Assembly (NCBI GenBank): GCA_029762535.1
Contig: JARVGK010000031.1
Coordinates: forward strand, 1-36,254
DNA from: Thermoplasmatota archaeon
GTDB taxonomy: Archaea; Thermoplasmatota; Penumbrarchaeia; Penumbrarchaeales; Penumbrarchaeaceae
DNA: 36,254 bases
Reading direction: 5' to 3'
Each line of letters opens with the position of its first letter. The stretch's first letter is position 1. The notes under the pieces were generated by a model. It made no database searches, was not told where the DNA came from, and saw nothing but the letters and a program-made list of their open reading frames with translations. Shown here one piece after another: positions 15,087 to 33,119 of the stretch. The translations under genes and the position numbers were made by a program.

Positions 15087-18041
15087 ATGAAGATGACCGA
15101 CCCTGCCCGGAGAACGGAGGAGGCGGATCCCGATGACGAGGTCAACGGAAGAAGCACCCAGTTCTACGATCTCATGAGACACAAGGTGACCAAGATACTG
15201 CTCGTATCATCGCCTTACGAAGCCTTCATCCTTGAGGAGGATGGGATACTCTTCGAGAAGATATCCTTCGAGTACGAGGATATGAGCCTGAGCTCTCCGC
15301 CCAGGATAAACCGCGTCTCCTCAGCGGCGGAAGCGTTGGAGGAGATCAGGAACCTTCGCTACGATCTGATAATAACGATGGCAAGGCTGCCCGATATGGA
15401 CCCACTCGAATTCGGCAGGAGGGTCAAGGAGGCCCAGCCATCCCTACCAGTGGTCCTATTACTGATGGATAGGGGCGATCTCTCCCAATTCCACAGGGCA
15501 GGAGAATACGATTCAGTTGACAAGGTGTTCCTGTGGAACGGGGATTCGACCCTTTTCCTGGCCATCAACAAGCTTATTGAGGACAAGAAGAACGTTGCAT
15601 CCGACACGTCGACGGGACTCGTGAGGGTAATACTCATAGTCGAGGATTCTCCCAGATACTATTCGATATTCCTGCCTTTGATCTACACCGAGATACTCAG
15701 GCAGAACAAACTGTTGATATCGGAGGGCTTCAACGAACAGGACAAGCTTTTGAGGAAGAGGTCCAGGCCCAAGATCATTATGGCAGAGACCTTCGAGGAG
15801 GCCCTTGAGAAATATACATTCTACAAGAGCTGTATGCTCTGCATAATAAGCGACGTTTCGTTTCCCAGAGCTGGCAGGCTGCATGAGGAGGCGGGGTTCG
15901 AGCTCATCGATGAGATTGATAAAGGGACGCCGGTCCTCTTGAACTCCTCGCACGACGATCATATGAAAAGGGCTCAGGATATGGGGGTGCCCTTCCTCAA
16001 CAAGAACTCGACCGTTCTGCTTTCGGGGATAAGGGAGTTCTTCAAGGAGAGGCTCGGTTACGGCGATTTCATCTTCAGAACGCCCGATGGTACCGAGATA
16101 GACCGGGCCAAAGGAATACACGAGTTCATGGAGATGATAAAGAGGATACCTTCCGAGTCATTGTATCACCACGGAAGGGCGAACCAGTTCTCCAGCTGGC
16201 TTCTGGCCAGAGGAGAGGTCGCCCTCGCCGCGAAACTCAGGCCCAAGAAGGTGTCGGATTTCCGAGACGGGGAGGAGATGCGAGAGCACATAATCGAGGC
16301 GATCAAGGAGATAAGAAGGAGCAAGCAGATGGGGGTCATACTGGATTTCGACAGCCAGGAGTTCGAGTTCGAGGGGACCGTCACAAAGCTTGGAACAGGT
16401 TCCCTCGGGGGTAAGGGCAGGGGTATCGCTTTCCTATCATCGATCGTCAAGAGGTCCTCTCTTTCCGATCGGTTCAGGGGCGTCAGGATAAAGATACCGG
16501 AGACGTTGATAATCGGCACCGAATGGTTCGACAGGTTCAGCGAGGCTAACCGCGAGAAATGGTTGGGAGACCCCGATATGGAGGACCATGAGATATCGAA
16601 GAGATTCCTGGAGATGGAGATGCCCGCTGAGCTCGTCGACTCTCTGCGCAAGTTCATCTCCCACGCAAGGTTCCCCTTGGCGGTGAGGTCGTCGAGCCTT
16701 CTGGAGGATTCGCACAACCAGCCTTTCGCCGGTATTTACTCCACCTACATGCTCCCGAACAACTGCCCCGAGGACGAAGTGAGGCTGGCCCAGCTGGTGG
16801 ATGCGGTGAAGCTCGTCTACGCCTCGGCCTTCCACAAGGCGGCCAGGAGCTACATGAGATCGACGGTCCACGTCACCGAGGAGGAGAAGATGGCCATTGT
16901 CATTCAGAGGCTCGTAGGGAACGGGCTCGGGGACAAGTTCTTCCCCCTCATGTCAGGGGTCTCCCAATCCCTGAACTTCTACCCCGCTCCGCCTCTCACA
17001 AGAGAGGACGGGATCACCAGCGCCGCATACGGCCTGGGTAGGATAGTCGTGGAGGGCGGCAGGGTGCTGTCCTTCTCCCCCAACCGCCCCGGAGTGCTCC
17101 CGGGTTTCTATACAGTTGAGGACATGCTGAAGAACTCACAGAAGGATTACTACGCTCTCGATATGGGGCCCAACTGCGCCCATCTTGTGGAGGGGGACCA
17201 TGCGACGCTCGTCAAGCAGGACATCGCCGACGCCGAGGATGCGGATTGGACCGGATATGTCATGAGCACCTACGATCCCAACGATGGAAGGTTGCGGGAC
17301 GGGATCGGAACGGAGGGTCCGCGCCTCGTCACTTTCGCCGGGATCCTCAAGGGAAAGATGGTCCCCGTGGACCTGATATTGAAGGAATTGACCGATATCG
17401 GCAGAAAAGGTATTGGAAGGCACATCGAGATCGAGTTCGCTCTCGCAATGGGATCGGACGGTGTCCCCGAGTTCTACCCGCTCCAGATCCGCCCCCTGGT
17501 AACATCGAGGGAAAAACAAGTAGTGTCGATCCCGGAGGCGGACCTCCAACATGCCCTGGTCCATACCGATTCAGCTCTCGGGAACGGGGCCATAGATGGC
17601 ATCCGAGACGTGATCTTCATACCCTACGACCTCTTCGATGTGAACAGGACCGTGGAGATCGCATCGGAGATCGGCGCGTTCAACGAGAAGATGTGCGGCA
17701 GCCCCTACATTCTGATAGGGCCAGGCAGGTGGGGTACCAGGGACCGCTTCCTGGGAATACCTGTCAAATGGGACCAGATCTCCTGCGCCAGGGCCATGGT
17801 GGAGTATTCCACTGAGGATCACAGGATAGATCCCTCCCACGGGACACATTTCTTCCATAATATAACCTCCCTGAACATACCCTACCTGTCCGCTGGCAGA
17901 TCTGGTATCGATTGGGATCGGATAGCCGGGATGGAGGTTCTCGAGAGGAGCGCCCATGTCGTGCATGCCGCTTCCAAAGAGCCGTTGAGGGTAGTGGTGG
18001 ATGGAAGGTCGGGAAAAGGGGCGGTAATGCATGAAAATTGA
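15087..18041 (+). CDS. two receiver-like domains + PPDK/PEP-synthase ATP-grasp domain + GPGRWG domain (paralogue 1)
   Basis: This 984-residue multidomain protein is not a true PEP synthase. Residues about 33-165 form a receiver-like fold without the acidic pair or phospho-Asp (LLVSSPYEA; IITMARLPD). Residues about 178-325 form a second receiver with everything in place: E186/D187 in IVEDSPR, D256 in ISDVSFP, S287/S288 and K306 in LNKNS. Residues about 435-820 match the nucleotide-binding domain of PPDK/PEP synthase: SLGGKGRGIAFL, LAVRSSSLLEDS followed by FAGIYSTY, IVIQRLVG, AAYGLGRIVVEGG and EFYPLQIRPLV. The phosphohistidine swivel and PEP/pyruvate TIM-barrel domains are absent. Instead there is a C-terminal domain with LIGPGRWGTRD, LGIPVKW and GTHFFHN, shared with the two paralogues at 24225-30213. 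A phospho-regulated ATP-using enzyme is the likeliest reading; the substrate is unknown. Confidence 0.85.
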   Translation: MKMTDPARRTEEADPDDEVNGRSTQFYDLMRHKVTKILLVSSPYEAFILEEDGILFEKISFEYEDMSLSSPPRINRVSSAAEALEEIRNLRYDLIITMARLPDMDPLEFGRRVKEAQPSLPVVLLLMDRGDLSQFHRAGEYDSVDKVFLWNGDSTLFLAINKLIEDKKNVASDTSTGLVRVILIVEDSPRYYSIFLPLIYTEILRQNKLLISEGFNEQDKLLRKRSRPKIIMAETFEEALEKYTFYKSCMLCIISDVSFPRAGRLHEEAGFELIDEIDKGTPVLLNSSHDDHMKRAQDMGVPFLNKNSTVLLSGIREFFKERLGYGDFIFRTPDGTEIDRAKGIHEFMEMIKRIPSESLYHHGRANQFSSWLLARGEVALAAKLRPKKVSDFRDGEEMREHIIEAIKEIRRSKQMGVILDFDSQEFEFEGTVTKLGTGSLGGKGRGIAFLSSIVKRSSLSDRFRGVRIKIPETLIIGTEWFDRFSEANREKWLGDPDMEDHEISKRFLEMEMPAELVDSLRKFISHARFPLAVRSSSLLEDSHNQPFAGIYSTYMLPNNCPEDEVRLAQLVDAVKLVYASAFHKAARSYMRSTVHVTEEEKMAIVIQRLVGNGLGDKFFPLMSGVSQSLNFYPAPPLTREDGITSAAYGLGRIVVEGGRVLSFSPNRPGVLPGFYTVEDMLKNSQKDYYALDMGPNCAHLVEGDHATLVKQDIADAEDADWTGYVMSTYDPNDGRLRDGIGTEGPRLVTFAGILKGKMVPVDLILKELTDIGRKGIGRHIEIEFALAMGSDGVPEFYPLQIRPLVTSREKQVVSIPEADLQHALVHTDSALGNGAIDGIRDVIFIPYDLFDVNRTVEIASEIGAFNEKMCGSPYILIGPGRWGTRDRFLGIPVKWDQISCARAMVEYSTEDHRIDPSHGTHFFHNITSLNIPYLSAGRSGIDWDRIAGMEVLERSAHVVHAASKEPLRVVVDGRSGKGAVMHEN

Positions 18042-18147
18042 TGTGTGACGTTAAAGTTTCTTATAGTGGCTGTAATATGCCCCCTCGACCTGCGTGGTCC
18101 GGGGTCGCCCTCGATCCCTGTCCAGCGGGCCTCTCGGGGTGTTCTCT

Positions 18148-18624
18148 TTGGATGATGTGCCGCCAGTTTCCGGGTCCCATCAAGCGAAAAAGATCGTCGA
18201 AAGAAGCAAGCTGATACCGCGACTGCAGAAGATACAGGAGAAGAACGGCTACCTGCCCGAGGCGGAGATAGTATCCCTTGCAGAGGAGCTCGGGATCCCG
18301 CTAAGTTCCATATATGGCGTTGCGACCTTCTATACGCAGTTCCGGTTCCAGCCTCTGGGCAAGTACGTGCTAAAGATATGCCACGGCACCGCCTGCCATG
18401 TGAACGGGGCCGTGAAGATGTCGGAGGTAATAACCGAGGTTCTCGGGATAGACGAGGGCCAGACGACCCCTGACGGTCTGGTCACCGTTGAGCGCGTCGC
18501 ATGCCTTGGATGCTGTTCCCTCTCACCGGTAATAATGATAAACGATAGGGTGTTCGGTAAGCTGGACACTGCGAAGCTCAGGGATATACTCGACAAGCTC
18601 AAGAGAGGTGAGATCGATGATTGA
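18148..18624 (+). CDS. NuoE-like [2Fe-2S] thioredoxin-fold subunit
   Basis: This is the small electron-transfer subunit of an NAD(P)H oxidoreductase related to NuoE, HndA and HydC. It has the N-terminal helical bundle (IPRLQKIQEKNGYLPEAEI), the GVATFYTQF signature and four cluster ligands in CHGTAC and CLGCC. The start is uncertain. The frame is open from GTG 18094, but its first 15-18 codons use arginine and glycine codons unlike the rest. A GGGGTG 6 nt before TTG 18148 favours that start, and GTG 18139 is also possible. The stop overlaps the start of the NuoF-like gene by 8 nt, so the subunits are translationally coupled. Confidence 0.85.
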   Translation: MDDVPPVSGSHQAKKIVERSKLIPRLQKIQEKNGYLPEAEIVSLAEELGIPLSSIYGVATFYTQFRFQPLGKYVLKICHGTACHVNGAVKMSEVITEVLGIDEGQTTPDGLVTVERVACLGCCSLSPVIMINDRVFGKLDTAKLRDILDKLKRGEIDD

Positions 18625-20416
18625 ATACATATCGATCGGCATGAACTCCTGCGGGATCGCCGCAGGGGCGAAGGATACGTATCAAGCGCTTGTGAAGGGG
18701 TTGAAGGAGAGGTCGCTCGACATACCCATCAAAGTCGTGGGATGCGCCGGAATGTGCTACAGGGAGCCCCTCGTCGATGTGGTCGAGGGGTCCGGTATAA
18801 CGGGTTACGGCGGCGTGACGGCGGACAATGTGGAGAGGATCATAGAGGAGCACATCGTGAAAGGTTCCCAGGTTCAGGACCTGATGGTGAAGAAGGCCTC
18901 CAGGTCAGATCCTGACGATATCAGATGGGACATGGACATGTTCTTCAAGAAGCAGAAGAAGATAGTCCTTGAGAACTCCGGCATCATCGATCCGGAGCAG
19001 ATATCCGAATACATGGACAGAGGTGGATATCATGGCCTTCGAAAGGCCCTCTCGATGGCGCCGCCCGAGGTGGTATCAGAGGTGGATAGGTCCGGATTGA
19101 GGGGCAGAGGGGGGGCTGGTTTCCCCACCGGACTCAAGTGGAAGATAACAATGGAGGCCAAGGCGAACAAGAAGTATGTGATATGCAACGCCGACGAAGG
19201 CGATCCGGGGGCGTTCATGGACCGCAACGTCCTCGAGGGGGATCCCCACAGGGTGATCGAGGGGATGACCATCGGGGCATATGCCGTGGGCTCGGACGAG
19301 GGATACATCTACTGCAGGGCCGAGTATCCCCTGGCGATCAAGCGCCTCAGCATAGCCATAGACCAGGCCAAGGAGAAGGGATTCCTCGGGAAGAACATAC
19401 TCGGTAGCGACTTCTCCTTCGACATACACATCAAGGAAGGGGCCGGTGCTTTCGTATGCGGCGAGGAGACCGCCTTGATGAATTCCATCGAGGGTAAGCG
19501 GGGCATGCCCAGGCCCAGGCCCCCATACCCCTCCGAAAAGGGCCTTTTCGGCGCATCGACGATGATAAACAATGTGGAGACATGGGCGAACGTCCCCTGG
19601 ATAATGCGAAAGGGGGCCGATAGATACGCCGAGTTCGGCGTCGACAGGAGCAAGGGGACGAAGGTGTTCGCCCTGGCAGGAAAGGTGAGAAGGGGAGGGA
19701 ACGTGGAAGTGCCCATGGGCATGCCCATAAGGGAGATCCTCTACGATATAGCCGGAGGCTCCAGCACGGATAGGGATATCAAGGCCGTGCAGTTCGGGGG
19801 CCCCTCGGGCGGCTGCCTCCCATCCACGCTGTTCGACACTCCGGTAACGTATGAGGACCTGACCAAGACTGGCGCGATCGTTGGCAGCGGAGGTATGGTG
19901 GTGATGGACGAGGGAACGTGCATGGTCGATATAGCCCGTTTCTTCCTGGATTTCACCGTCAAGGAATCCTGCGGAAAATGCACGTTCTGCAGGCTTGGGA
20001 CCAGGAGGATGTGGGAGATTCTCGACAGGATATCCGAGGGGAAGGGCAGGGAGGAGGACGTATCTGCCCTCGAATCGTTGGCATATGATGTCAAGGCCGG
20101 ATCGTTGTGCGGTCTGGGCCAGACCGCGCCCAACCCGGTCCTGACCACCCTTCGGTACTTCAAGGATGAGTTCATGTCCCACGTCAACGACAAGGAATGC
20201 CCGGCGCACGTCTGCAAACCGTTAATGAGATTCAATATTACTGATCGGTGCGTGGGCTGCACCGCCTGCGCAAGGGTCTGCCCTGTGAAGGCCATCAGCG
20301 GGGAGGTCAAATTGATGCACGTCATAGATCAGGAGGCCTGCATAAAATGCGGATCCTGCGTACAGGCCTGCAAGTTCAAGGCGATTGAGATCACCGGGAT
20401 AAAGGAGGTGGCCTGA
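18617..20416 (+). CDS. NuoF-like NAD(P)H/FMN subunit with extra Fe-S domains
   Basis: This is the flavin subunit of the complex. It starts with a thioredoxin-like [2Fe-2S] domain (SCGIAAGA, GCAGMCYREP). The NADH/FMN core follows (LRGRGGAGFPTGLKW, CNADEGDPGAFMDR, GAGAFVCGEETALM) with the [4Fe-4S] motif ESCGKCTFCRLGT and its distal Cys in GSLCGLGQ. Two C-terminal ferredoxin clusters complete it (CVGCTACARVCPVKA, CIKCGSCVQACKFKA). This layout is that of HndC/HydB and of the recently defined Bfu-type bifurcating flavoenzymes, rather than of membrane complex I. ATG 18617 follows AGAGGTGA; an in-frame GTG 18608 is less likely. The gene is followed directly, without a gap, by the NuoG/GltD-like gene. 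Confidence 0.92.
   Translation: MIEYISIGMNSCGIAAGAKDTYQALVKGLKERSLDIPIKVVGCAGMCYREPLVDVVEGSGITGYGGVTADNVERIIEEHIVKGSQVQDLMVKKASRSDPDDIRWDMDMFFKKQKKIVLENSGIIDPEQISEYMDRGGYHGLRKALSMAPPEVVSEVDRSGLRGRGGAGFPTGLKWKITMEAKANKKYVICNADEGDPGAFMDRNVLEGDPHRVIEGMTIGAYAVGSDEGYIYCRAEYPLAIKRLSIAIDQAKEKGFLGKNILGSDFSFDIHIKEGAGAFVCGEETALMNSIEGKRGMPRPRPPYPSEKGLFGASTMINNVETWANVPWIMRKGADRYAEFGVDRSKGTKVFALAGKVRRGGNVEVPMGMPIREILYDIAGGSSTDRDIKAVQFGGPSGGCLPSTLFDTPVTYEDLTKTGAIVGSGGMVVMDEGTCMVDIARFFLDFTVKESCGKCTFCRLGTRRMWEILDRISEGKGREEDVSALESLAYDVKAGSLCGLGQTAPNPVLTTLRYFKDEFMSHVNDKECPAHVCKPLMRFNITDRCVGCTACARVCPVKAISGEVKLMHVIDQEACIKCGSCVQACKFKAIEITGIKEVA
20401..20410 (+). promoter_or_regulatory. strong ribosome binding site inside the end of the NuoF-like gene
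   Basis: AAAGGAGGTG lies 6 nt before ATG 20417. It provides efficient re-initiation directly after the NuoF-like stop codon (20414-20416). Confidence 0.7.
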
Positions 20417-23344
20417 ATGGTGAAGGTCATCGTTGATGGCAGGGAGTTCGATCTCCCCGACGACCAACCGATATTATCGGGTTTGAGAGAACAGGGCGAG
20501 CACATGCCCGGGATGTGTCTGAACCCGGAGTTGGACCCTTTCGGGTCCTGCAGGCTCTGCCTGATCGACGTGAAGGGAAGGAAGATAACGGCATGCTCGA
20601 CCCTGCCGTCGGAGGGAATGGAGCTGACGACCATCAGCCCGGAGATATCCGGTCTCAGAAGGACCGCGCTCGAGCTGATGCTGTCGGACCATTACGGCGA
20701 CTGTATAGGCCCGTGCCAGAAGGGATGTCCCGCCCACAGCGACGTACAGGGATATCTGGCCCTCATCGCCAACGGAAGGATACACGAGGCCGTCAAGCTC
20801 ATGAAGGAAAGGTACATACTCCCGGCGACGCTCGGCAGGGTCTGCCCAGCCTTCTGCGAGGAGGAGTGCAGGAGGAAGCTTGTGGAGGGCCCGGTAGCCA
20901 TAAGGCAGCTCAAACGCTACGCCGCGGACGAGGACCTCAAGGATCCATGGATGCCGGAGATCCCGCCGGCGACAGGCAGGAAGGTCGCCGTTGTGGGGGG
21001 AGGCCCGGCCGGGCTCTCCAACGCCTTCTACCTGAGGTCCATGGGCCATGATGTGACGATATTCGAGGCCATGCCCAAGCTCGGAGGCTGGACCCGGTAC
21101 GGGATCCCCCGCTACAGGCTGCCCAAGGATGTCCTGGACCGGGACATCGCGACGGTCATCGATACAGGGATCGATGTTAGATGCTCCACGAGGCTCGGTA
21201 AGGATGTGGCCCTGGACGATCTTTCGCGGCAATACGACGCGGTCTTCCTGGGCATAGGCGCCTGGAAAGGGAGGGCCATGGGAGTTGAAGGGGAGGACCT
21301 CCCCGGCGTATTCCAGGGTATAGACTTCCTCTCAAGGGTCAATCAGGGGGAGGGGATCGATCTCGGAAAGAGGGTGGTGGTCGTCGGTGGCGGTAACACT
21401 GCCATGGACGTGGCAAGGACGTGCCGAAGGCTGGGATGCGAGGTGACGCTGACCTACAGGAGGTCCGAGGACGAGATGCCCGCGGCCAGGATAGAGATAG
21501 AGGAGGCGAAGGAGGAGGGGATATGCTTCATGCTCCTTTGCAACCCCGTGAAGGTAATTGGCAATGACAGGCTGGAGAAGCTTGAGTTGATCGCCATGGA
21601 GCTCGGCGATCCCGACGCGAGCGGAAGGAGGAGGCCGGTGCCGAAGGAGTGCTCGGAGTTCACCCTGGACGCGGACAGCCTCATACTGGCGATAGGGCAG
21701 TACAACGATGACGATGAGATGAAGCGTCTCGGCGTGGGCGTCCGCAAGGGTCTGCTGGAGGTGGATAGAACGACGCTTCGGACCACCTATCCCAACGTGT
21801 TCGCCGGCGGGGACGCGGTCCTTGGCCCATCGACCGTCATCGAGTCCATCGAGCAGGGCAGGCGTGGGGCCCTGATGATGGACATGTTCATGAAGGGAAA
21901 ATTGGAGACGGTCAAGAAGGTCCTTGAGCGTCCGGGTGAGCATGTGGCAGAGACGGTACAGGATAGCGAGATCGCCTCGATGTTGATGGACCTCAAGCCC
22001 TACGATCACTGGAAGAACGTGACCGAGGCGGACTACGAGCACATCGAAAGGTCCCCGCGACGCAAAGCACCCATAATGGATCCGGACACCAGGTCGGGGA
22101 CCTTCTCGGAGGTCGAGGGTTCATTCGACGAGGATTCGGCCAGGGCCGAGGTGATGCGCTGCATGTCCTGCGGATGCATGGACGTTTTCGAGTGCAAGCT
22201 CAGGGAGTATTCCACCATCTACGGAGCGGACCAGTACAGATTCGGGGAAGGCAGGACCAAGGTCGATATCGATCTCTCCCACCCTCAGATCGTACTCGAC
22301 AAGAACAAATGCGTGCTGTGCGGACAGTGCGTCAACCACACGCAGGATGTCGTCGGGGAGGGCGTACTGGACTTCTGCAACCGAGGCGTCGAGACCGTGG
22401 TCTCCCCTCCGCCGGGAAAAGGGCTCTCCGACATGTCCGGTGTTATGATGAGTGACATGATCGATGTATGTCCGACCGGTGCGTTCTCCGAGAACACGCC
22501 CCATCGCAAACCGGGGCCCTGGAACACTCGGACGGTCCGCTCCATATGCAGCGGATGCGGAGTTGGATGCGAGATGGGGCTCGAGGTATACGATAGCGAT
22601 ATCGTCAGGGCCAGGTCGATACCGGATACTTGGAACAGGGGCCACCTATGCGATCCCGGAAGGTTCGAGAGGATCTGGGCCATTTCCCATAGCGGACCGA
22701 AAGTTCGCGACGGGGATTCCTACAGGTCCATCTCTCCCGATAAGGCATCTTCCATATTCCTCGAAAGGTCCAAGGGAATGGCGATCGTACTTGGCGGGGA
22801 CGTGACCCTTGAGGAGGCTGAGATGTTCAGGTCCATCGCCGTGGAGAAGGGGATCCCGATCGGTTCCACTGCCGAAGAGGGGCTATCGACGGCCACATAC
22901 ATGGATATCAGCCGTTCCAGGTCCATCTATTTGGCATTGGATGTCAATGGATATCCCGTGCTGAAACCCTTCCTGAACGAGGCGATAAGGCGCGGGGCGT
23001 CGATCGTGATGAGCGAGGAGGAGGCCGATATGATCATCGCGGAGGCCCCCTACGTTCCGGGTGAGAAGAAGGCGCTGGTCATGCACAGGGGGCTCAACGA
23101 TGCCGGATTGCTCCAGATGGGCATAAAGGGCATCCCGAAGGCCGACTCCTACCTGTTCGTGGGGGCCCAGCGCGATGAGCTGCTGGGGTACACGATCGCC
23201 CTGGGCCACAGCGAGATCGCGGATATGGTCCTGCCCTATCCCTCCTTCGCCAACAGGTCCGGGAGCATCGTCAATTCCGGGCTCATCAAGCTTACAAAAA
23301 AGGGACTGGTAGAGTCGGATATCAGAGCCTACCTGCCTTTTTGA
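20417..23344 (+). CDS. NuoG-like protein with inserted GltD-type FAD/NAD(P) reductase
   Basis: This is a 975-residue iron-sulfur flavoprotein. Residues 1-80 are a plant-type [2Fe-2S] domain (C34, C45, C48, C60). Residues about 90-180 are the Cys-rich domain that precedes GltD-type reductases (C96, C100, C104; C143, C147, C151). Residues about 188-500 are the reductase itself, with FAD loop AVVGGGPAGLSNA (192-204), NAD(P) loop VVVGGGNTAMDVA near 322 and the late FAD motif FAGGDAVLGPSTV. Ferredoxin-like Cys groups follow (CMSCGCMDVFEC near 583, CVLCGQC near 635), then the NuoG/formate dehydrogenase-type cluster CSGCGVGCEMG (about 711) and a shortened molybdopterin-fold remnant ending ADMVLPYPSFANRSGSIVN. 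There is no H-cluster and no visible molybdopterin ligand, so the protein should shuttle electrons between NAD(P)H and ferredoxin. The gene is last in the operon. Confidence 0.9.
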   Translation: MVKVIVDGREFDLPDDQPILSGLREQGEHMPGMCLNPELDPFGSCRLCLIDVKGRKITACSTLPSEGMELTTISPEISGLRRTALELMLSDHYGDCIGPCQKGCPAHSDVQGYLALIANGRIHEAVKLMKERYILPATLGRVCPAFCEEECRRKLVEGPVAIRQLKRYAADEDLKDPWMPEIPPATGRKVAVVGGGPAGLSNAFYLRSMGHDVTIFEAMPKLGGWTRYGIPRYRLPKDVLDRDIATVIDTGIDVRCSTRLGKDVALDDLSRQYDAVFLGIGAWKGRAMGVEGEDLPGVFQGIDFLSRVNQGEGIDLGKRVVVVGGGNTAMDVARTCRRLGCEVTLTYRRSEDEMPAARIEIEEAKEEGICFMLLCNPVKVIGNDRLEKLELIAMELGDPDASGRRRPVPKECSEFTLDADSLILAIGQYNDDDEMKRLGVGVRKGLLEVDRTTLRTTYPNVFAGGDAVLGPSTVIESIEQGRRGALMMDMFMKGKLETVKKVLERPGEHVAETVQDSEIASMLMDLKPYDHWKNVTEADYEHIERSPRRKAPIMDPDTRSGTFSEVEGSFDEDSARAEVMRCMSCGCMDVFECKLREYSTIYGADQYRFGEGRTKVDIDLSHPQIVLDKNKCVLCGQCVNHTQDVVGEGVLDFCNRGVETVVSPPPGKGLSDMSGVMMSDMIDVCPTGAFSENTPHRKPGPWNTRTVRSICSGCGVGCEMGLEVYDSDIVRARSIPDTWNRGHLCDPGRFERIWAISHSGPKVRDGDSYRSISPDKASSIFLERSKGMAIVLGGDVTLEEAEMFRSIAVEKGIPIGSTAEEGLSTATYMDISRSRSIYLALDVNGYPVLKPFLNEAIRRGASIVMSEEEADMIIAEAPYVPGEKKALVMHRGLNDAGLLQMGIKGIPKADSYLFVGAQRDELLGYTIALGHSEIADMVLPYPSFANRSGSIVNSGLIKLTKKGLVESDIRAYLPF

Positions 23345-23404
23345 TGAACGAACGGGTCGATCTTATCATCCATAGGGCCATATAACATAAGGAGCCGTTG
23401 GGAA

Positions 23405-24235
23405 ATGGAGTGCATATTCGCAAGCGATCTGCATGGAAGGAAGGAAAGGTACGACGCCCTCTTTAGGTCCATAGGCGAGATCGCTCCTCAAGCGGTGTTC
23501 CTGGGCGGGGATCTCCTGCCAAGGACGGGCGACGTGGTCCTGTTCATAGAGGAGATGATGGACAGGATAGACGAACTGCGATCGTCATCGTCACCATGTG
23601 AAGTGTACGTTATACTCGGCAACGACGATCCCAAACAGTACGAGGGCGAGTTCATCAGGGCCGATAGGGAAGGCAAGATACATTACGCCCACCAGCGGAG
23701 ATTCGAACTCGGCGGATACGTCATCAGGGGCTATTCACATGTACCTCCCTCGCCGTTCCTCCTCAAGGACTGGGAGAAGTACGACGTATCGCGATATGTG
23801 GATCCCGGCTGCGTCCCCCCCGAGGAGGGGATCTTCACCACGGATGTGGACAGGGGGGCGATACCACACACCACGATCAAGGGAGACCTATCGCCCCTCA
23901 TCAGGGATCCGGACATGCACAGGACGATAATGCTGTTCCACGCACCGCCATATGGAACATCTCTTGACATGGCGAACATCGGCGGGAAGATGATAGACCA
24001 CGTACCGCTGGACCCCCACGTCGGTTCGATAGCGATAAAAGAGTTCATCGAGTCGGCCTCTCCGCTGCTCACACTTCACGGCCATATCCACGAGTCCGCG
24101 ACCCTCACGGGGTCCTGGCGGGAAGAGATCGGAAAAACGACCTGCCTTTCCGCGGCCTATGAAGGCAAGGGCCTGGCACTTGTACGTTTCGACACGGAGC
24201 AGTTGGGATCAGCCACGAGGGGGATCATTTCCTGA
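23405..24235 (+). CDS. calcineurin-like metallophosphoesterase
   Basis: This is a predicted dinuclear-metal phosphoesterase (276 residues). The ligand motifs appear in order: FASDLHG (D-x-H), FLGGDLLPR (GD), VILGNDDP (GN-D/H), LFHAPPYG (H) and LTLHGHIHES (GHxH). The middle of the protein (about 95-170) is longer than in minimal members. The substrate is unknown; family members hydrolyse phosphodiesters, cyclic nucleotides and phosphoproteins. AAGGAG at 23389-23394 precedes ATG 23405 by about 10 nt. The gene converges with PPDK-like paralogue 2 and the two coding regions overlap by 11 nt at their 3' ends. Confidence 0.88.
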   Translation: MECIFASDLHGRKERYDALFRSIGEIAPQAVFLGGDLLPRTGDVVLFIEEMMDRIDELRSSSSPCEVYVILGNDDPKQYEGEFIRADREGKIHYAHQRRFELGGYVIRGYSHVPPSPFLLKDWEKYDVSRYVDPGCVPPEEGIFTTDVDRGAIPHTTIKGDLSPLIRDPDMHRTIMLFHAPPYGTSLDMANIGGKMIDHVPLDPHVGSIAIKEFIESASPLLTLHGHIHESATLTGSWREEIGKTTCLSAAYEGKGLALVRFDTEQLGSATRGIIS

Positions 24236-27200
24236 ACGTGAGCTTCCTGGCGGGGTTGTAGACGGAGCCTATGTGGGAGGCCCATGATGTCTTGTTGGCG
24301 ATATCGCCATGAGTGACGACATGGACATCCAGGAGGCATCCGGACCGGATCCCGGTCCTATAGAAATTCTCCTCGTCGAGCCTCTCTCCCCATTCCCTGA
24401 AATATTCCAGGAGCCTCTCCTCCTGCTCCCGTTTGCCGTTGAAAACAACTATCAGATCGATGTCGGAACCTGGACCGGCCTTGTTCTCCTTGACGCTGCC
24501 GACTAGGTATATCTCCTCTATGCCCATGGTCTTACGATCTATATCGGATAGAACATCATCGAGCCTCTCCATCCTCCACGAGTTATGATCGGGTGTGGCG
24601 AGGTATCCCATCGCCTTTATCGATTCCCCATCCATTACAACCGACAGAGATCCCCCGGAGGAGATGTCGGAGGTCCTGATCAGCCTTACAACTTCTTTGT
24701 GTCCATTCGATATCTGTACGTGCTCGTGGAGGCGGTTCTCCGAGATGCCCAGCAGCTGTTCGTTAAGATAGCCTCCTTCCTCGTCAGGGTACAGGGGAAG
24801 GTATTGTATGCCCGCCTCCACGAGGTCCTGGAAGAAATGGGTGCCGAAGGAAAGGTCCGGAACGTATCCTCCCTTGCTCCTTGCGATCTCTATGAGCAGG
24901 CATGTATTATTGATATCACCGTACTGGACCGGGACCCCGAGCTTTATGTCTCCCCTGCTGCCCCATCTTCCAGGCCCCATGAGGAGGAACCGCTTCTTCG
25001 GCAGAGCCGAGTTCAACCTGGAAACGATGCCCGCAACGGCGTTCATCTCCTCCCTGCTATCCAGCTTCTCATATGCCTCAGGGTCCACGTACACGATCCA
25101 ATCGATGTTCTTTATAAGTCCCGATGTGACGTATCTGGCGGCCCGGAAGAGAACGTTCTTCTCCAGAACATCCGTTGGAAGTGAGATCTTCTCCGATATC
25201 ATGCCTCGCGTCTGGGGCCTGCACTGGAGAATGTACAGGCTCGATCCGTCGTGGGCGAACTCGATATCAACTGGCGTCCTCAATCTATCCTTCAATAGCG
25301 TCATTACCTTCTTCATCTGCCTGATGAACGGCGTCCTCTCCACTATGCCGTTGAAGGTCACCACCGGCTGCCTTTGATCGGTTCCCAGTATGACCCCTTT
25401 CGGGTCCACGATCCCCCCTTCCGCGTGGAACGATATCATCTTCTCGAGGTCGGGATACGAGGACGAATTGGCCCTTATCATGTCCTCTATCCTTATGGTA
25501 TCTATGGTCTTTGACCCCATGTTGATGACGTCCATGAATACCTGCGAGTATCTGGCGATGTCCTCCGTGCTGGTGTTAACCCTTATCATGGGCTTCATCG
25601 GGGATATGAGTAGTGGATAATCGTTCGATACCCGATCCACCGCTCTGGTACCCAAACCCATCACCATTCTAAGTATCCCGTCCTGCCTGTTGATCCTTGC
25701 GGACCACCGGAACTCGTTATTGGTAAGGGCCACTCCAGCGAAGCTCGGGGTGAAATAGGGCCCGATGCGGTTGCCCACCACCTCCTGGATCAGGACGCCC
25801 ATGTTCTCAGAAAGGTCCAGAAGTCCCCTCTCCCTTCTGTATTCGATCGGGTTCGGTCCGAACGTGGACGCCCATACCTCCGCTATGGCGTCCATCAACG
25901 CGTTCAACCTCTCATCGTCCGTTCCCGTATTGCACAGGAACAGGCTTTTGTACTTGCCCGAGAAGGCCGCCCCGTAACTGTCCTCGAGATGGCTTGAGGA
26001 CCTGACGATTATCGGCCGGTCCTTGATCTCCCTGAGCACGTCCCTGAGCTGATTGAGTATCTCTGACGGGAACATGCCGTTCTTGAACAGCTGCTCCAGG
26101 AAGGGCTGCTCCTTCCTGATCTCGTTCGGGTCCATGTATTTGATCTGGACGACCTCGTCCAAGGCGTTCTCGTGTATGAACTCCCTCATCGCCCCCGTGC
26201 TCATGTACCAGCTGCGGGGGAACCTGATGGACCCGATGTCCTCATCTCTCCCCATCTCCTTTTTGATTATTCTTTCTATGAGAAAGACCATCGATGATTT
26301 TCCTCCGAGGCCTCCGACCCCTTCGTAATGGCCTATGAACCTGTGGGCCATCTGGTGGAAATCCTCTATCTCCAGGTAATCCTTGGCGACGTTGAGGTAT
26401 TCTGGCCTGTCGTTGAGGAAGCGTCTTATGAGATTCGTGACGATCGTGCGTTTCATCTCCTCGGGTATGATGCGATCGCCGACGGGTATCCGCATGTAAT
26501 TGTCGAGTGCGGATTGCACCTCCTTGAGCGAGATCTTTCCCTGCTCGGAAACCAGAAGCAGGGGCCTGGCCTTGTTCTCCTTCAGCCATCTGACCAGAAG
26601 GTCCATGATCTCGGACGATGTGAGATGCTTCGAGGCGACGTCGAAAAGGCCCTGCTGTACCTGAATAAGCGACTGCATATCGAACCTCGGGTTCGGAATG
26701 TTGGAACCCAGCTGTTCATCCTCCTCCGAAGAGGACGGCTTCAATATCGCCAATAGGCTCTCTAGGCTCTCCTCCTTGAGCCTTGCGAGATGGTACATCA
26801 TCTTCCTGCTGATCATGAGATATGTCTGCGGATCGGTCTTGTTGAGAATGTCGATTATCAGCCTCCACTCCTCTCCAGGTGTCGAAGCAGGACCGATCAT
26901 ATTCTTAAGGCTCGCACCTTTGGCGGATAGCAGCCTCTTCATCTGATCGACATAGCTTCTCACCTCCGCCTCGCTGTAGTACTGGCTGACGTACTTCGAT
27001 ACGTTCTCCGATACAACGCGTAGCAGTTTCCCCTCCTCTTTCAGGAAAGGACCTATGTCCCTTTTCGGCTTTTTCTTGTGATAGTTGACCCTTATTTCGC
27101 CTACGCTCTTCCCGCCCTGCATTATCGCTCCGGATAGGGACCATTCGGTCTGAGCATGTCCGGGCGTCTGATATGATCTGGGGCCAAGGGTGATGCCGGC

Positions 27201-27419
27201 CGTCGCGATCTCCGGATACATCATGGCCTGTGGCAGGATCTCCACTATCATCTGCATCGTCCTGTCTATGTCCACGCCCTCGTTCTCGATGATCTCCGCC
27301 ACTTGGTATATGCAGTTGAGCTCCTTGAGTCTCTCCCTCAGCTGGCTGTCCTTTTCGGCGAGCTCCCTGTCCAGATGGCCCATCTTTACGTTCTTTGCGG
27401 TCTTCGTCGCCTTTTTCAT
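24225..27419 (-). CDS. GAF-like + PPDK-type ATP-grasp + GPGRWG domain + nucleotidyltransferase (paralogue 2)
   Basis: This 1064-residue protein opens with a short coiled coil (about 15-32). A GAF-like sensor domain of the kind found before histidine kinases follows (LKELNCIYQVAEII, then IVEILPQAMMYPEIATA; about 33-165). A helical linker leads to the PPDK/PEP-synthase ATP-grasp domain (GVGGLGGKSSMVFL near 370; IIVRSSSHLEDS near 470; LYILQCRPQTRG near 733). Next is the GPGRWG domain (LLMGPGRWGSRG near 812; FGTHFFQDL near 860). The last about 110 residues are a Pol-beta-type nucleotidyltransferase with GSVKENKAGPGSDIDLIVV (about 972-990) and a third Asp in LLDVHVV. The phosphohistidine and pyruvate domains of real PEP synthase are missing. 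GGAGGGG lies upstream of ATG 27419. The gene is 28 nt behind paralogue 3 and probably co-transcribed with it. Confidence 0.85.
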   Translation of the reverse strand: MKKATKTAKNVKMGHLDRELAEKDSQLRERLKELNCIYQVAEIIENEGVDIDRTMQMIVEILPQAMMYPEIATAGITLGPRSYQTPGHAQTEWSLSGAIMQGGKSVGEIRVNYHKKKPKRDIGPFLKEEGKLLRVVSENVSKYVSQYYSEAEVRSYVDQMKRLLSAKGASLKNMIGPASTPGEEWRLIIDILNKTDPQTYLMISRKMMYHLARLKEESLESLLAILKPSSSEEDEQLGSNIPNPRFDMQSLIQVQQGLFDVASKHLTSSEIMDLLVRWLKENKARPLLLVSEQGKISLKEVQSALDNYMRIPVGDRIIPEEMKRTIVTNLIRRFLNDRPEYLNVAKDYLEIEDFHQMAHRFIGHYEGVGGLGGKSSMVFLIERIIKKEMGRDEDIGSIRFPRSWYMSTGAMREFIHENALDEVVQIKYMDPNEIRKEQPFLEQLFKNGMFPSEILNQLRDVLREIKDRPIIVRSSSHLEDSYGAAFSGKYKSLFLCNTGTDDERLNALMDAIAEVWASTFGPNPIEYRRERGLLDLSENMGVLIQEVVGNRIGPYFTPSFAGVALTNNEFRWSARINRQDGILRMVMGLGTRAVDRVSNDYPLLISPMKPMIRVNTSTEDIARYSQVFMDVINMGSKTIDTIRIEDMIRANSSSYPDLEKMISFHAEGGIVDPKGVILGTDQRQPVVTFNGIVERTPFIRQMKKVMTLLKDRLRTPVDIEFAHDGSSLYILQCRPQTRGMISEKISLPTDVLEKNVLFRAARYVTSGLIKNIDWIVYVDPEAYEKLDSREEMNAVAGIVSRLNSALPKKRFLLMGPGRWGSRGDIKLGVPVQYGDINNTCLLIEIARSKGGYVPDLSFGTHFFQDLVEAGIQYLPLYPDEEGGYLNEQLLGISENRLHEHVQISNGHKEVVRLIRTSDISSGGSLSVVMDGESIKAMGYLATPDHNSWRMERLDDVLSDIDRKTMGIEEIYLVGSVKENKAGPGSDIDLIVVFNGKREQEERLLEYFREWGERLDEENFYRTGIRSGCLLDVHVVTHGDIANKTSWASHIGSVYNPARKLTFRK

Positions 27420-27447
27420 ATATGATCTTCCCCTCCACGACCGTGTC

Positions 27448-30213
27448 TCATACCTTTTGACCCCCGGGTATCTGCATAACGGCGCGTGATCCGCTCCCGT
27501 CTATGAGGACCCGGACCCCCCTCTCCGACCTTAGATGCATGACCCTATCGGACTCGTAGGCTTTTGGAATATCATCCAGAGCGCTCCAAAGGGCGGATCC
27601 GTCCTCCTCCGCATCCAAAGTGAGATAACCCAGGCGAAGGGACGATATGTTCTGGAAGAAATGGGAACCCTGGGACGGGTCGATCATCCTGTCGCCCACG
27701 GGCCTCTCCACCATCACTCCGACGGCCGAAATGTCGTTCCAGGCGACGGGTATGCCGAGCCATGGGTCGCATGATCCCCATCTACCGGGACCTATGAGGA
27801 GATGCTTTCTCCCCGATGAGGACACCTCCTTGTTGAGCTTTCCTATCTCCTTGACGAGGGCGTCCGCGCTCCTTCCCTCCAGCTCGCGCCCTTTGACCAT
27901 GATTATATCATTGAAGGCGAACTCTCCGTTGCCCATGGTCCTTCCGCATCTGAGCACGATCTCGTCCTCGGGGACGGAATCGAGATCGGCGAGCGATCTG
28001 CGGTCCCTGCCCCTCATGCTTCGCAGCTGCAGAAGGTAAAGTTCCGCATTCTCCCCGTCATCGAATATGTTCATGGCGAACTCGATCTCGACGGGAGTAC
28101 CCAGCGAGCGCTGGGACGCATCTAATATGTCCTTCATGACCTCGGCCATGGGGAAACGCTTCATCTGAAGAATGGGGGCGAAATCCACTATCCGGGGTCC
28201 GTCCCTGCCGCATCCCGGGTAGGTCCTGTCGTTCTCGCATGAATAGGTGGATACAAGACTGTCGAGGACACCGTCCTCCTCCGCCCTGGATAAGTCCTCG
28301 AGGACGATCTGCACGTCCTCGCCGAACTCGTTGGACCTCACGGTAGGTGAGAACTTCAGCGCGTAGAAACGCCTTTGAGTTCGATCGAGGCATTCCCGCC
28401 CCCCTCCGAGGAACGAGGAACGCGGATGGACGGGGCAGAACTTGAAGGTCGCCCCTCCGTCGACTATCATCTTTCCCAGCCCCACAGCGAGGCTGACGGT
28501 CCCGTCCTCGCTCCTGCATGTCGGGAAGGGCCAGTAATCGTAGGACCTCCCCACCCCGGATAGGTCAGGATAGTATAGTTCGCCGTGCGTGTTTCCGACG
28601 ACCTCCTGAATAACTGCCGCCATCTTCTCATCAGCATTATGGTTCCCTGTGCTTTCGAGATAGGCTCGTGCCCTCTTCAGGAAGGTTGAGGCATATACGT
28701 ATTTGATCCCCATGCTGATGTGCTTGAACCTCCGATCGAGCTCATGGCCTGAGTTCGAGAGCATCACCGATGCGTATATCCCGGCGAAGGGCTGGAAGAG
28801 CGCGTCCTCAAGAAGGCTCGAGGACCTGATTATCACGGGGTTCCTCACGATATCGGCGAAGTGGCGTATATCCCCGATAATGGTGCTGGGAAGGTCCGAT
28901 CTGAGGAACAGGTCGACGATCCTCTCGTCCGTCTCGTCCTTGAGCTTTTCGGGATCCAGTCCGTTGTTCTTGAGGAACTGGTCGAACACATCCGTAGCAA
29001 GTACAACGGTTCTTGGGACCTTTATCGTCAGATTGCTGTACTTTCCCCGGTCGAGGCTCATAGCCAATCCCTTGAGGAAAGATAACCCCCTGCCCTTGCC
29101 TCCCAGCTGTCCGCTCCCGATCCTGGTGAACTCGTCCTTGACCTGGGCGCTTCTTGTGAAATCCATTACGCTTCCGGACCCTCCCGAGCGGCGCCGCTCC
29201 TTGATAAGATCGATAAGGTGGGCTTTCCAATCTTGAGAGGCGTCCCGAAGGAATGCGTCCATATCGCGAACGATCTCGAACTCCGTCCTGCTTATCAGCC
29301 AAGGCCTGATACTTTTCCATTGATCCGGGCTTGGCCGGGTCGAATACAACAGCCTCTCAAGGCCCCTCAGGTCGCCACAGCTGCCCAGTTCCGTAACGCC
29401 CTCATCCTTGAGGACCAGATCCTCGGGGATGAGCATGTCGGATACGTTCTCCTCGGTGAGCTCCAAGGGGGGGAGTGACGGGATCCCTTTGATGGGAGCC
29501 TGATCGGAAATGACGAGCGAGACCCTGTCCCCGAAGCGGTGCAAGGCTTTTTCCAGCCCTCCGTAACGGATCGCGTCCATGACGCGTATCCTCCTCTCGA
29601 AGGCTCTGATCTTCTCTTTGAGCGCTGTTTTTCGGCCCATGATCCCCGGAAGCCTGGCCCATACGGCGTCGCAGGCGGCGATGATCGCATGAGACCTATC
29701 GGCCATATTCTCGATGTCCAGGAGAATAATGTGAGAGAGGCCTTCGTCCCTATCCGGGTCGTCAAGATATGACCGGTCCTCCATGAACTGGACTATACGG
29801 GGAACTATCTCAATCCCCTCGGGCATCAGGAAGATCGAGTCAAAGGCCGAGGGATCGATCTCTCCTTCCTGGTCAAGAACGCCTTTGTTCCTCGTCAAAA
29901 AGGCCAGCTTACCGGCGGGTGAAAATGCCCTCGCTCTCTCGATAAGATCGCCCATTGGCATGTCCGCGGGAGGATTGAACACCAAGGCGAGATCGATCCC
30001 GCCTCCCTCAATGGATCCAAGGGCCTGTTGGCCTCCGGAAGCGAAATCCACATCCGGAACGAAACCAAGATCGGCCTCGGAGTACCTTTTGGACAGGGCA
30101 GTTATTATAGGGACCTCACCCTCCAGATACAGCCGGTCGAACTCCGATGCTATCAGCAGCATGTGCCGGACGCTGGAGGTGGTGTCCCGATCCGCATCCA
30201 CGCTTTCGCTCAT
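27448..30213 (-). CDS. degenerate receivers + PPDK-type ATP-grasp domain + GPGRWG domain (paralogue 3)
   Basis: This 921-residue protein has the same layout as paralogue 1 but with worn receiver domains. The first (about 15-135) lacks a phospho-Asp (ALVFNPPADM). The second (about 140-290) keeps an Asp in VISDQAP and a Lys in VLKDEG but has an altered acidic pair (LLDIEN). The ATP-grasp domain is intact: SGQLGGKGRGLSFL, VIIRSSSLLEDA followed by FAGIYASV, VIQEVVGN, AVGLGKMIVDGG and AELYLLQLRSM. In that last motif the usual Arg-Pro is replaced by Arg-Ser. The C-terminal domain has LIGPGRWGSCD, LGIPVAW and GSHFFQN. TATA box TTATTAAT at 30236-30243 lies 26 nt before ATG 30213 and no Shine-Dalgarno sequence is present, so the mRNA is probably leaderless. 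It is the first gene of a two-gene unit with paralogue 2. Confidence 0.85.
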   Translation of the reverse strand: MSESVDADRDTTSSVRHMLLIASEFDRLYLEGEVPIITALSKRYSEADLGFVPDVDFASGGQQALGSIEGGGIDLALVFNPPADMPMGDLIERARAFSPAGKLAFLTRNKGVLDQEGEIDPSAFDSIFLMPEGIEIVPRIVQFMEDRSYLDDPDRDEGLSHIILLDIENMADRSHAIIAACDAVWARLPGIMGRKTALKEKIRAFERRIRVMDAIRYGGLEKALHRFGDRVSLVISDQAPIKGIPSLPPLELTEENVSDMLIPEDLVLKDEGVTELGSCGDLRGLERLLYSTRPSPDQWKSIRPWLISRTEFEIVRDMDAFLRDASQDWKAHLIDLIKERRRSGGSGSVMDFTRSAQVKDEFTRIGSGQLGGKGRGLSFLKGLAMSLDRGKYSNLTIKVPRTVVLATDVFDQFLKNNGLDPEKLKDETDERIVDLFLRSDLPSTIIGDIRHFADIVRNPVIIRSSSLLEDALFQPFAGIYASVMLSNSGHELDRRFKHISMGIKYVYASTFLKRARAYLESTGNHNADEKMAAVIQEVVGNTHGELYYPDLSGVGRSYDYWPFPTCRSEDGTVSLAVGLGKMIVDGGATFKFCPVHPRSSFLGGGRECLDRTQRRFYALKFSPTVRSNEFGEDVQIVLEDLSRAEEDGVLDSLVSTYSCENDRTYPGCGRDGPRIVDFAPILQMKRFPMAEVMKDILDASQRSLGTPVEIEFAMNIFDDGENAELYLLQLRSMRGRDRRSLADLDSVPEDEIVLRCGRTMGNGEFAFNDIIMVKGRELEGRSADALVKEIGKLNKEVSSSGRKHLLIGPGRWGSCDPWLGIPVAWNDISAVGVMVERPVGDRMIDPSQGSHFFQNISSLRLGYLTLDAEEDGSALWSALDDIPKAYESDRVMHLRSERGVRVLIDGSGSRAVMQIPGGQKV

Positions 30214-30269: not shown

Positions 30270-31556
30270 TCAGATCCATCCGCGGAGGTGGCAGGCCTCT
30301 GCCACTCTCGAGATGGCTATCATGTAGGCGGACTCTCTGAGTGGGATGTTCCTGTGCTTGGTGAGGTCGAGCACACCGTGGAACGCCTGGGTCATCTTCT
30401 CGTCGAGCTTTCCGAGGACCTCGTCTCTGGACCAGTAGTAGTTCATGTTGCACTGGACCTGCTCGAAGTAGCTGCAGGTGACCCCGCCGGCGTTCGCCAG
30501 GAAGTCGGGTATGACCATTATCTTCCTGGAGCTCAGGACCGAGTCGGCCTCCGGCGTGGTGGGGCCGTTGGCGCCTTCCGATACCAGCTTGACCCTCTTG
30601 TCGATCCTGTCAACGTTGGAGGCGGTTATCGAATTTTCGAGGGCCGCCGGTATCAGGATATCGACGTTCATTTCGATCCAGTCATCACCGGGAATGCGCT
30701 CGTAGCCCATCGCCTTGGCCTTGTCGAAATCTATTGACCCGTACCGGTCGGTGATGGATCGCAATTCCTTGAGATAGATGCCCTCTTCCTTGACAAAGGT
30801 GTAGGCCTTCTTCTCCTGCTGGTTCCAGCAGGATACGCATTTGACCGTCCCTCCATACTGGTTGTAGAGCTCGATGGTGTACTGGGCCACGTTGCCGAAA
30901 CCCTGAACGGCGGCGGTGGTCTTGGAAATGTCCATCTCGAGGTCCTTGAGCGCCTCCCTGGTGTGGTATATAACGCCGTAGCCGGTCGCCTCGGTCCTGC
31001 CGAGGGACCCGCCCATGCCGACCGGTTTGCCGGTAATGAATCCGGGGTACTTTCCACCGGAGAGCTTTTCGTACTCGTCAAGCATCCATAGCATGTGCTG
31101 CCCGCTCGTCATCACGTCCGGGGCGGGAACGTCCTTGAAGGGCCCTACGTTCTGATACACCTGCCTGACCCAGCCGCGGCAGATCCCCTCCTGTTCTCTC
31201 ATCGAGAGATCGTGAGGATCGCATATGACGCCACCTTTGCCCCCGCCCAGCGGGATGTCGGCGACCGCGCATTTCCAGGTCATCCACATCGCAAGCGCCC
31301 TGACGGTGTCGGCGGTCTCCTGCGGGTGGAACCTTATGCCGCCCTTGCAGGGACCGCGGGCGTCGTTGTGCTGCACCCGGAACCCTTTGAAGACGCGGTA
31401 CGTCCCATCGTCCATCCTCACCGGGATGGAAAAATGGTATTCCCTCAAGGGCTCCCTGAGAAGGTTCCTCGAGGCTTGGTCCAATTCCAGTTTCTCGGCG
31501 ACAGCATCGAACTGATCCTGCGCCATCTTGTAGGCGTTGAAACCCTTTTCGGCCAA
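30270..31556 (-). CDS. glutamate dehydrogenase, archaeal/GudB-type subfamily
   Basis: This enzyme performs reversible oxidative deamination of glutamate to 2-oxoglutarate and ammonia. The protein has 428 residues with the substrate motif GPCKGGIRFHP, catalytic-lysine segment ADIPLGGGKGGV, APDVMTSGQHMLWM, and the dinucleotide-binding turn VQGFGNVAQYT. The residues after the second strand of that fold read CVSCWNQQEKK rather than the usual Asp/Glu- or Ser-Asp-containing loop, so cofactor preference is unclear. The start is TTG 31556, with GGAGAG about 6 nt upstream. A TATA box at 31611-31618 gives a leader of about 32 nt. It is a separate unit from the second dehydrogenase behind it. Confidence 0.93.
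   Translation of the reverse strand: MAEKGFNAYKMAQDQFDAVAEKLELDQASRNLLREPLREYHFSIPVRMDDGTYRVFKGFRVQHNDARGPCKGGIRFHPQETADTVRALAMWMTWKCAVADIPLGGGKGGVICDPHDLSMREQEGICRGWVRQVYQNVGPFKDVPAPDVMTSGQHMLWMLDEYEKLSGGKYPGFITGKPVGMGGSLGRTEATGYGVIYHTREALKDLEMDISKTTAAVQGFGNVAQYTIELYNQYGGTVKCVSCWNQQEKKAYTFVKEEGIYLKELRSITDRYGSIDFDKAKAMGYERIPGDDWIEMNVDILIPAALENSITASNVDRIDKRVKLVSEGANGPTTPEADSVLSSRKIMVIPDFLANAGGVTCSYFEQVQCNMNYYWSRDEVLGKLDEKMTQAFHGVLDLTKHRNIPLRESAYMIAISRVAEACHLRGWI

Positions 31557-31703: not shown

Positions 31704-33119
<1,416 letters not shown>

Follow-up and report, generated by a model that had tools for sequence, protein, structure and literature searches.

In rifampin phosphotransferase (RPH), according to the available part of its description, a carrier histidine attacks the beta-phosphate of ATP, which yields phosphohistidine, AMP and inorganic phosphate, and the swivel domain then takes the phosphate to the second site (PMC4844700). 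VadK (Rv1127c), as presented in the accessible part of that report, is a histidine kinase derived from pyruvate phosphate dikinase (PPDK) that regulates the methylcitrate cycle and autophosphorylates without a pyruvate domain (PMC13400623). The combination of a receiver domain (REC) with a PPDK domain is also already in the literature, as can be seen from the available portion of PMC5847659. Here we describe three paralogous proteins encoded on a stretch of 36,254 nucleotides from a Thermoplasmatota archaeon (hereafter the window; it corresponds to contig 27 in a genome of 2.96 Mb and 93% completeness). All three contain the ATP-grasp domain shared by phosphoenolpyruvate (PEP) synthase (PEPS) and PPDK, and we propose, with a probability of roughly 0.4, that they are ATP-driven phosphate relays in which phosphate would pass from ATP to a C-terminal histidine and on to an aspartate of the second receiver, thereby tuning a glutamate dehydrogenase encoded nearby. 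The architecture is already known; the strongest new fact is the conserved glutamate dehydrogenase context.

Domain architecture of the three proteins

The three open reading frames that an earlier reading of the DNA, made from the sequence only, had delineated are present on the strands given in Table 1. As that sequence-only reading had it, each encodes a PPDK_N ATP-grasp domain, supported by near full-length Pfam matches above the curated cut-off (E values of 3.7e-34, 8.5e-54 and 6.3e-39 for paralogues 1, 2 and 3), and all three have the C-terminal domain with its GPGRWG motif in common: pairwise alignments cover the ATP-grasp together with a large part or the whole of the C-terminal domain, with 29-35% identity and E values from 1e-40 to 4e-112. 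This domain is the last one of paralogues 1 and 3. For conservation, 77 locus ranges were tested, of which L052, L060 and L076 were dropped owing to stops or frameshifts; in the 74 readable loci that remained, the ATP-grasp residues Lys443, Arg534, Glu783 and Gln800 of paralogue 1 are invariant. A joint MAFFT alignment with 16 PEPS/PPDK sequences aligned the Lys in 16/16, the Glu and the Gln in 15/16 each and Arg534 in 8/16 only, and Arg802 is replaced by Lys in 4 of the 14 members.

Among the Pfam and NCBIfam matches listed for the three proteins there is neither PF00391 nor a PEP/pyruvate-binding barrel, and the best stretches of the paralogues against PEPS models fall in the ATP-grasp part of those models. 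With no pyruvate barrel detected, the known PEP synthase reaction is unlikely for these proteins, as had been argued before, and true PEP synthase activity was set aside on this ground. Of the four PPDK_N genes in the genome, three are the paralogues and the fourth, on C58, also has a PF00391 match. Minimal versions that consist of the ATP-grasp and C-terminal domains only are found at L172:8458-10467 (a frame of 670 residues) and G039:C130 (589 residues), and another occurs in G016. Since these versions hold the two domains alone, they suggest that the pair forms the working core.

The C-terminal domain

The AlphaFold2 model of the C-terminal domain (predicted local distance difference test score, 91.7) has the predicted swivelling beta/beta/alpha fold of phosphohistidine domains, and the position of the domain after the ATP-grasp agrees in order and in joint placement with PEPS and PPDK. 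His921 of paralogue 1 lies at the start of a helix (residue 114 of the model), and its equivalent is invariant in 335/335 C-terminal pieces of all types and in the 73 of 73 loci that have this column. Gly878, Gly880, Arg881 and Gly883 are likewise present in all 335 pieces, for most of which the GPGRWG motif served as the selection pattern. It should be noted that the His is not part of that pattern, and that duplicates and close relatives are among the pieces. The alignments used for structure prediction had 73 and 86 rows, a subset of the relatives, and the positions of the carrier histidines were compared by hand, as a proportion along the aligned ranges. Based on the model, the "GPGRWG" domain is probably the missing phosphohistidine domain in disguise.

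Several results weigh against this assignment. The sequence-only reading had held that the proteins lack a phosphohistidine swivel domain, and for sequence profiles this stands, as the search for a hidden domain of this kind with PF00391 (hmmscan) matched 0 of 73 C-terminal pieces; it does not stand for the predicted fold, which is nonetheless swivelling. HHalign of the C-terminal domain against sets of 7 and of 28 swivel sequences gave values under 1%, and its profile found no swivel link among PDB sequences, the top rows being synaptobrevin/VAMP7-type chains. Foldseek alone, used with the C-terminal model, returned weak mixed rows only (best E value 1.4e-3, LdcA). Furthermore, the joint MAFFT alignment places Arg885, and not His921, opposite the carrier His in 16/16 PEPS/PPDK sequences. 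Finally, the motif T/SxxGGxxxH, given in the available part of PMC12167813 as preceding the carrier His of swivel domains, is absent from the C-terminal domain, which has S-x-G-T/S-H there instead. The swivel identity stays a prediction because sequence profiles do not detect it.

The fold could also be a swivelling one without a carrier role, His921 being needed to bind metal or for packing, with the protein acting as an ATP-dependent regulator or ligase. This is quite unlikely, given that domain order and joint placement agree with those of PEPS and PPDK, and that the His is invariant too in 45 paralogue-2-type sequences, none of which has a receiver match.

The glutamate dehydrogenase neighbourhood

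The only two PF00208 genes found in the genome encode glutamate dehydrogenases 1 and 2 and are placed immediately upstream of the genes of paralogues 3 and 2, all in a row, with the gene for glutamate dehydrogenase 2 at 56 bases from that of paralogue 3. Relatives of the three proteins are numerous. Two protein searches returned at least 7,915 and at least 7,848 of them at E values up to 1e-3, which may include other PPDK_N proteins, and a scan of named genomes returned at least 591 confirmed stretches, the best 80 of which come, according to their titles, from Thermoplasmatota, Heimdallarchaeota, Bacteroidales, Desulfobacterales, Gemmatimonadota, Krumholzibacteria, Spirochaetes, Cloacimonadota, Acidobacteria, Desulfosporosinus and others. 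Unprompted clustering of 682 neighbour genes (from rough gene calls) at 63 loci ranked glutamate dehydrogenase first, with 35/63 loci; it was followed by a tandem second REC-PPDK gene (14/63), a response-regulator-exemplified cluster (9/63) and others at seven loci at most. By tblastn, a glutamate dehydrogenase gene was found in the fetched flank of 47 of 80 loci from many phyla, 36 times within 1 kb; these 80 loci include L028, L071 and L072, which are not in the set of 77 ranges. Where both flanks reached near 8 kb, the gene was present at 28 and absent at 12 of 40 loci. A Pfam scan of 108 immediate neighbours (all 121 less 13 tandem REC-PPDK genes), which gave the 25 commonest families, contained glutamate dehydrogenase 27 times, receivers seven times and the thiamine-diphosphate enzyme domain TPP_enzyme_C six times. 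In 12 genomes chosen beforehand, glutamate dehydrogenase was a neighbour in 11, compared with 0.18 expected from gene counts. Thus, the system appears tied to glutamate dehydrogenase.

The cassette of glutamate dehydrogenase 2, paralogue 3, paralogue 2 and a convergent metallophosphoesterase gene recurs in G002, G003 and G004, and also in G113 and G087, which belong to another family. In the latter two genomes, the gene in the place of paralogue 3 keeps a complete receiver 2, and a tree groups these copies with paralogue 3 with support of 100/100. Because the tree joins receiver-complete copies with paralogue 3, the cassette seems ancient, and decay of the paralogue 3 receivers would have followed later. 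The counterpart of paralogue 1 adjoins the gene of glutamate dehydrogenase 1 in G001 and G004. The metallophosphoesterase gene has the same convergent place in relatives from two families, and its product may serve as the corresponding phosphatase.

Other metabolic genes also occur in the neighbourhood. Genes for NuoE, NuoF and a large iron-sulphur flavoprotein come after paralogue 1, and NuoE/NuoF-like genes are near a REC-PPDK gene in five f17 genomes, at 5-6 of the 63 clustered loci and, by tblastn with NuoF, at 4 of the 80. Seven loci (L034, L059, L073, L080, L082, L083 and L085) have two adjoining upstream genes, which presumably encode the subunits of a 2-oxoacid:ferredoxin oxidoreductase, another enzyme of the 2-oxoglutarate node. 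These neighbours bear on whether the proteins could be small-molecule dikinases, similar to RPH or HpeHI, that act on a metabolite of the glutamate/2-oxoglutarate node and are merely regulated by the receivers. The predicted logic of ATP-grasp and swivel would be the same, and such an activity would fit a neighbourhood with glutamate dehydrogenase, NuoE/NuoF and enzymes that use thiamine diphosphate, the last of these probably being 2-oxoacid oxidoreductases; but before the ATP-grasp only receivers and a DUF5752-like region are seen, with no further substrate-binding domain, and the minimal version of G016 has nothing beyond the two core domains, which makes such a dikinase very unlikely.

With regard to the tandem arrangements, a second REC-PPDK-type gene is found at L034, L044, L048, L059, L061, L083, L085 and others, and the tandem partner is of the nucleotidyltransferase type in L033 and of a type with a PPDK_N match alone in L018.

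Receivers and possible phosphate donors

In the proposed relay, the ATP-grasp would phosphorylate the conserved C-terminal His (His921 in paralogue 1); from there the phosphate would move on to Asp256 in receiver 2, and the protein in its phosphorylated form would adjust the glutamate dehydrogenase whose gene lies nearby. Paralogue 3, with its worn-out receivers, and paralogue 2, with a nucleotidyltransferase and no receivers, would be partners having the same ATP-to-His core. Receivers accept phosphate from histidine. This route is proposed because of that property and because Asp256 is the best conserved known phosphate acceptor in the chain. Receiver 2, which has no Pfam match of its own and was recognised by its conserved residues and predicted fold, shows in the 74 loci conservation of Asp256 (74), Lys306 (74), Glu186 (73), Ser287 (73) and Asp187 (69, with Asn in five), and all five residues are present in 14/14 further genes. 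Of the two receivers that paralogue 1 had been said to have, both are thus present and the second is residue-complete, but receiver 1 lacks the phosphoacceptor Asp, its position 98 being Met in 62 of the 74 relatives as well. The receivers attributed to paralogue 3 are degenerate: they have no Pfam match, and neither the acid pair nor the Lys stretch is present, so that the residue set of response regulators (acid pair, Asp, Ser/Thr and Lys) is complete in receiver 2 of paralogue 1 and incomplete in paralogue 3. The DUF5752-like region sits between receiver 2 and the ATP-grasp; its name was not met in the literature searched, subscription papers being mostly outside reach.

Judging from its geranylgeranylglyceryl phosphate synthase gene and from relatives that bear the label Thermoplasmatota, the window belongs to this archaeal phylum or close to it. 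A full-length match of more than 1100 bits was obtained in 20 of 116 sampled genomes of the window's own phylum, and 15 of these 20 are HisKA-positive. The other five (G014, G117, G091, G097 and G109), which are from three families and 91 to 97% complete, are not among the 67 HisKA-matching genomes. Their 11 HATPase_c matches are five GyrB, four TopoVI-B and two MutL, with no kinase, and HATPase_c_2 had no match in them. All five keep the complete receiver 2 set and His921. They have 0 to 3 PF00072 places per genome, some in the REC-PPDK protein itself, a search that undercounts (the receivers of G014 itself were missed, which makes its zero a weak one). Against a relay in the same chain, it should be considered that these genomes may have other phosphate donors, or kinases that are divergent or were missed.

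These data also bear on the view that paralogue 1 is an ordinary response regulator whose receiver 2, once charged by a separate histidine kinase, would gate the ATP-grasp and the C-terminal module, the substrate of the module being, for instance, glutamate dehydrogenase or a small molecule. Consistent with this view, receiver 2 is complete, the genome has five HisKA matches and, outside paralogue 1, 11 PF00072 places, and receivers and response regulators figure among the neighbours counted above; in addition, the available part of PMC5847659 classes the REC-PPDK fusion with response regulators that have an enzymatic output. We nevertheless consider it unlikely, in view of the five genomes of three families in which the full receiver set is found without a HisKA, HATPase_c or HATPase_c_2 kinase, and of the absence of any histidine kinase family from the 25 most frequent ones in the 108 immediate neighbours scanned. 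The relay from ATP through His921 to Asp256 can be extended, tentatively and with some doubt, to a one-protein phosphorelay that works without a histidine kinase, in which an ATP-grasp charges a swivelling His that passes its phosphate to a receiver Asp of the same chain, as a dedicated glutamate dehydrogenase switch across archaea and bacteria.

Paralogue 2 and the positions of the features

The nucleotidyltransferase that had been read into paralogue 2 is indeed there (PF01909, E value 7.6e-9) and is found in 45/45 alignment members, paralogue 2 included, in which Gly974, Ser975, Asp986, Asp988 and Asp1031 are invariant. A GAF-like domain, also attributed to this protein, received no Pfam match in any of the 45 members (paralogue 2 and 44 relatives), and a search of five other genomes with the first 173 residues of paralogue 2 found two places, both in a single genome. 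The invariant residues would suit a nucleotidyl-transfer system in which this domain would be the output and modify a partner; such a system is extremely unlikely, as paralogues 1 and 3 do not have the domain. Where a regulated phosphoryl- or nucleotidyl-transfer system had been suggested, phosphoryl transfer is the best reading, a nucleotidyl role being left at most for the extra domain of paralogue 2. Taken together, the earlier observation is partly confirmed and its interpretation partly supported.

The nucleotidyltransferase has a weak likeness to models of MntA-type antitoxins (NF047752, E value 0.0012; PADLOC PDC-S09, E value 3e-5). A role in defence was rejected, the PADLOC matches being weak and limited to this domain and the metallophosphoesterase.

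Table 1. Positions in the window of the three paralogues, their domains and the surrounding genes.
Feature	Position	Strand	Details
Geranylgeranylglyceryl phosphate synthase	13493-14251		
Paralogue 1 (P0001)	15087..18041	+	984 residues; REC-REC-DUF5752-ATP-grasp-C-terminal domain
Receiver 1, paralogue 1	15183..15599	+	Residues 33-171; Met98 in place of phosphoacceptor Asp
Receiver 2, paralogue 1	15624..16061	+	Residues 180-325; full phosphoacceptor set E186 D187 D256 S287 K306
Codon of Asp256, paralogue 1	15852..15854	+	Proposed phosphate acceptor
DUF5752-like helical region, paralogue 1	16104..16370	+	Residues 340-428; PF19027, E 5.1e-6
ATP-grasp (PPDK_N), paralogue 1	16401..17540	+	
C-terminal domain, paralogue 1	17586..18032	+	Residues 834-982; predicted swivelling phosphohistidine-type fold (AlphaFold2, VIA-align)
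GPGRWG motif, paralogue 1	17718..17735	+	Residues 878-883
Codon of His921, paralogue 1	17847..17849	+	Proposed phosphocarrier
NuoE-like	18094..18624	+	PF01257, E 1.5e-47
NuoF-like	18608..20416	+	PF01512, E 9.7e-50
Large iron-sulphur flavoprotein	20417..23344	+	Nuo-type/GltD-like
Metallophosphoesterase	23405..24235	+	Convergent to paralogue 2; PF00149, E 7.6e-8
Paralogue 2 (P0002)	24225..27419	-	1064 residues; N-terminal region without Pfam match, ATP-grasp, C-terminal domain, nucleotidyltransferase
Nucleotidyltransferase core, paralogue 2	24396..24527	-	Residues 965-1008; PF01909
C-terminal domain, paralogue 2	24609..25175	-	Proposed carrier His861 at 24837-24839
ATP-grasp, paralogue 2	25200..26309	-	
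Paralogue 3 (P0003)	27448..30213	-	921 residues; degenerate receivers, ATP-grasp, C-terminal domain
C-terminal domain, paralogue 3	27475..27990	-	Proposed carrier His851 at 27661-27663
ATP-grasp, paralogue 3	28000..29109	-	
Glutamate dehydrogenase 2 (P0008)	30270..31556	-	PF00208, E 5.7e-70; GdhA_Arch, E 2.6e-140, below model cut-off
Glutamate dehydrogenase 1 (P0009)	31704..33119	-	NF006929 (NADP-specific glutamate dehydrogenase), E 1.6e-236, over cut-off

Comparison with known systems

If the proposed relay is true, a dikinase can take the place of a sensor histidine kinase in charging receivers; this would be a further phosphate source for receiver signalling and would explain why receivers stay complete in genomes with no histidine kinase found. 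Glutamate dehydrogenase, a central branch point of nitrogen and carbon, would also gain a named regulator in many uncultured lineages. Even with the relay wrong, the glutamate dehydrogenase link offers a testable role to a large family whose members frequently carry the labels 'PEP synthase' or 'hypothetical'. The literature searched, which consisted mostly of titles and abstract openings and included few subscription papers, did not turn up the swivel in disguise proposed here, the receiver kept where no histidine kinase was found, or a link of REC-PPDK to glutamate dehydrogenase.

The REC-PPDK architecture is shared with the response regulators of PMC5847659, and the Asp-less receivers beside PPDK in PMC4395418 resemble receiver 1 of paralogue 1; in contrast to the present proposal, the available parts of these two papers do not assign the fusion a function, interpret any part of it as a swivel or connect it with glutamate dehydrogenase. 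Like PEPS and PPDK, which combine PF01326, PF00391 and the barrel, the paralogues have an ATP-grasp with the conserved Lys, Glu and Gln followed by a predicted swivelling domain; unlike them, they have receivers in front, and neither a PF00391 match, nor a motif of the GGxTxH type, nor a barrel was found in them. VadK, as far as the accessible part of the report goes, is similar in having an ATP-grasp and a His domain, in lacking a pyruvate-binding domain and in controlling a metabolic pathway, but it is a truncated PPDK that keeps its catalytic His, and the main text of that paper does not use the terms receiver, response regulator or glutamate dehydrogenase (PMC13400623). Finally, RPH and HpeHI resemble the proposed relay in that, according to the available parts of their descriptions, the ATP-grasp gives a phosphate (the beta-phosphate in RPH) to the carrier His of a swivel domain; they differ in their third domain, which binds a drug or a phenol where the paralogues would have a receiver (PMC4844700, PMC12167813).

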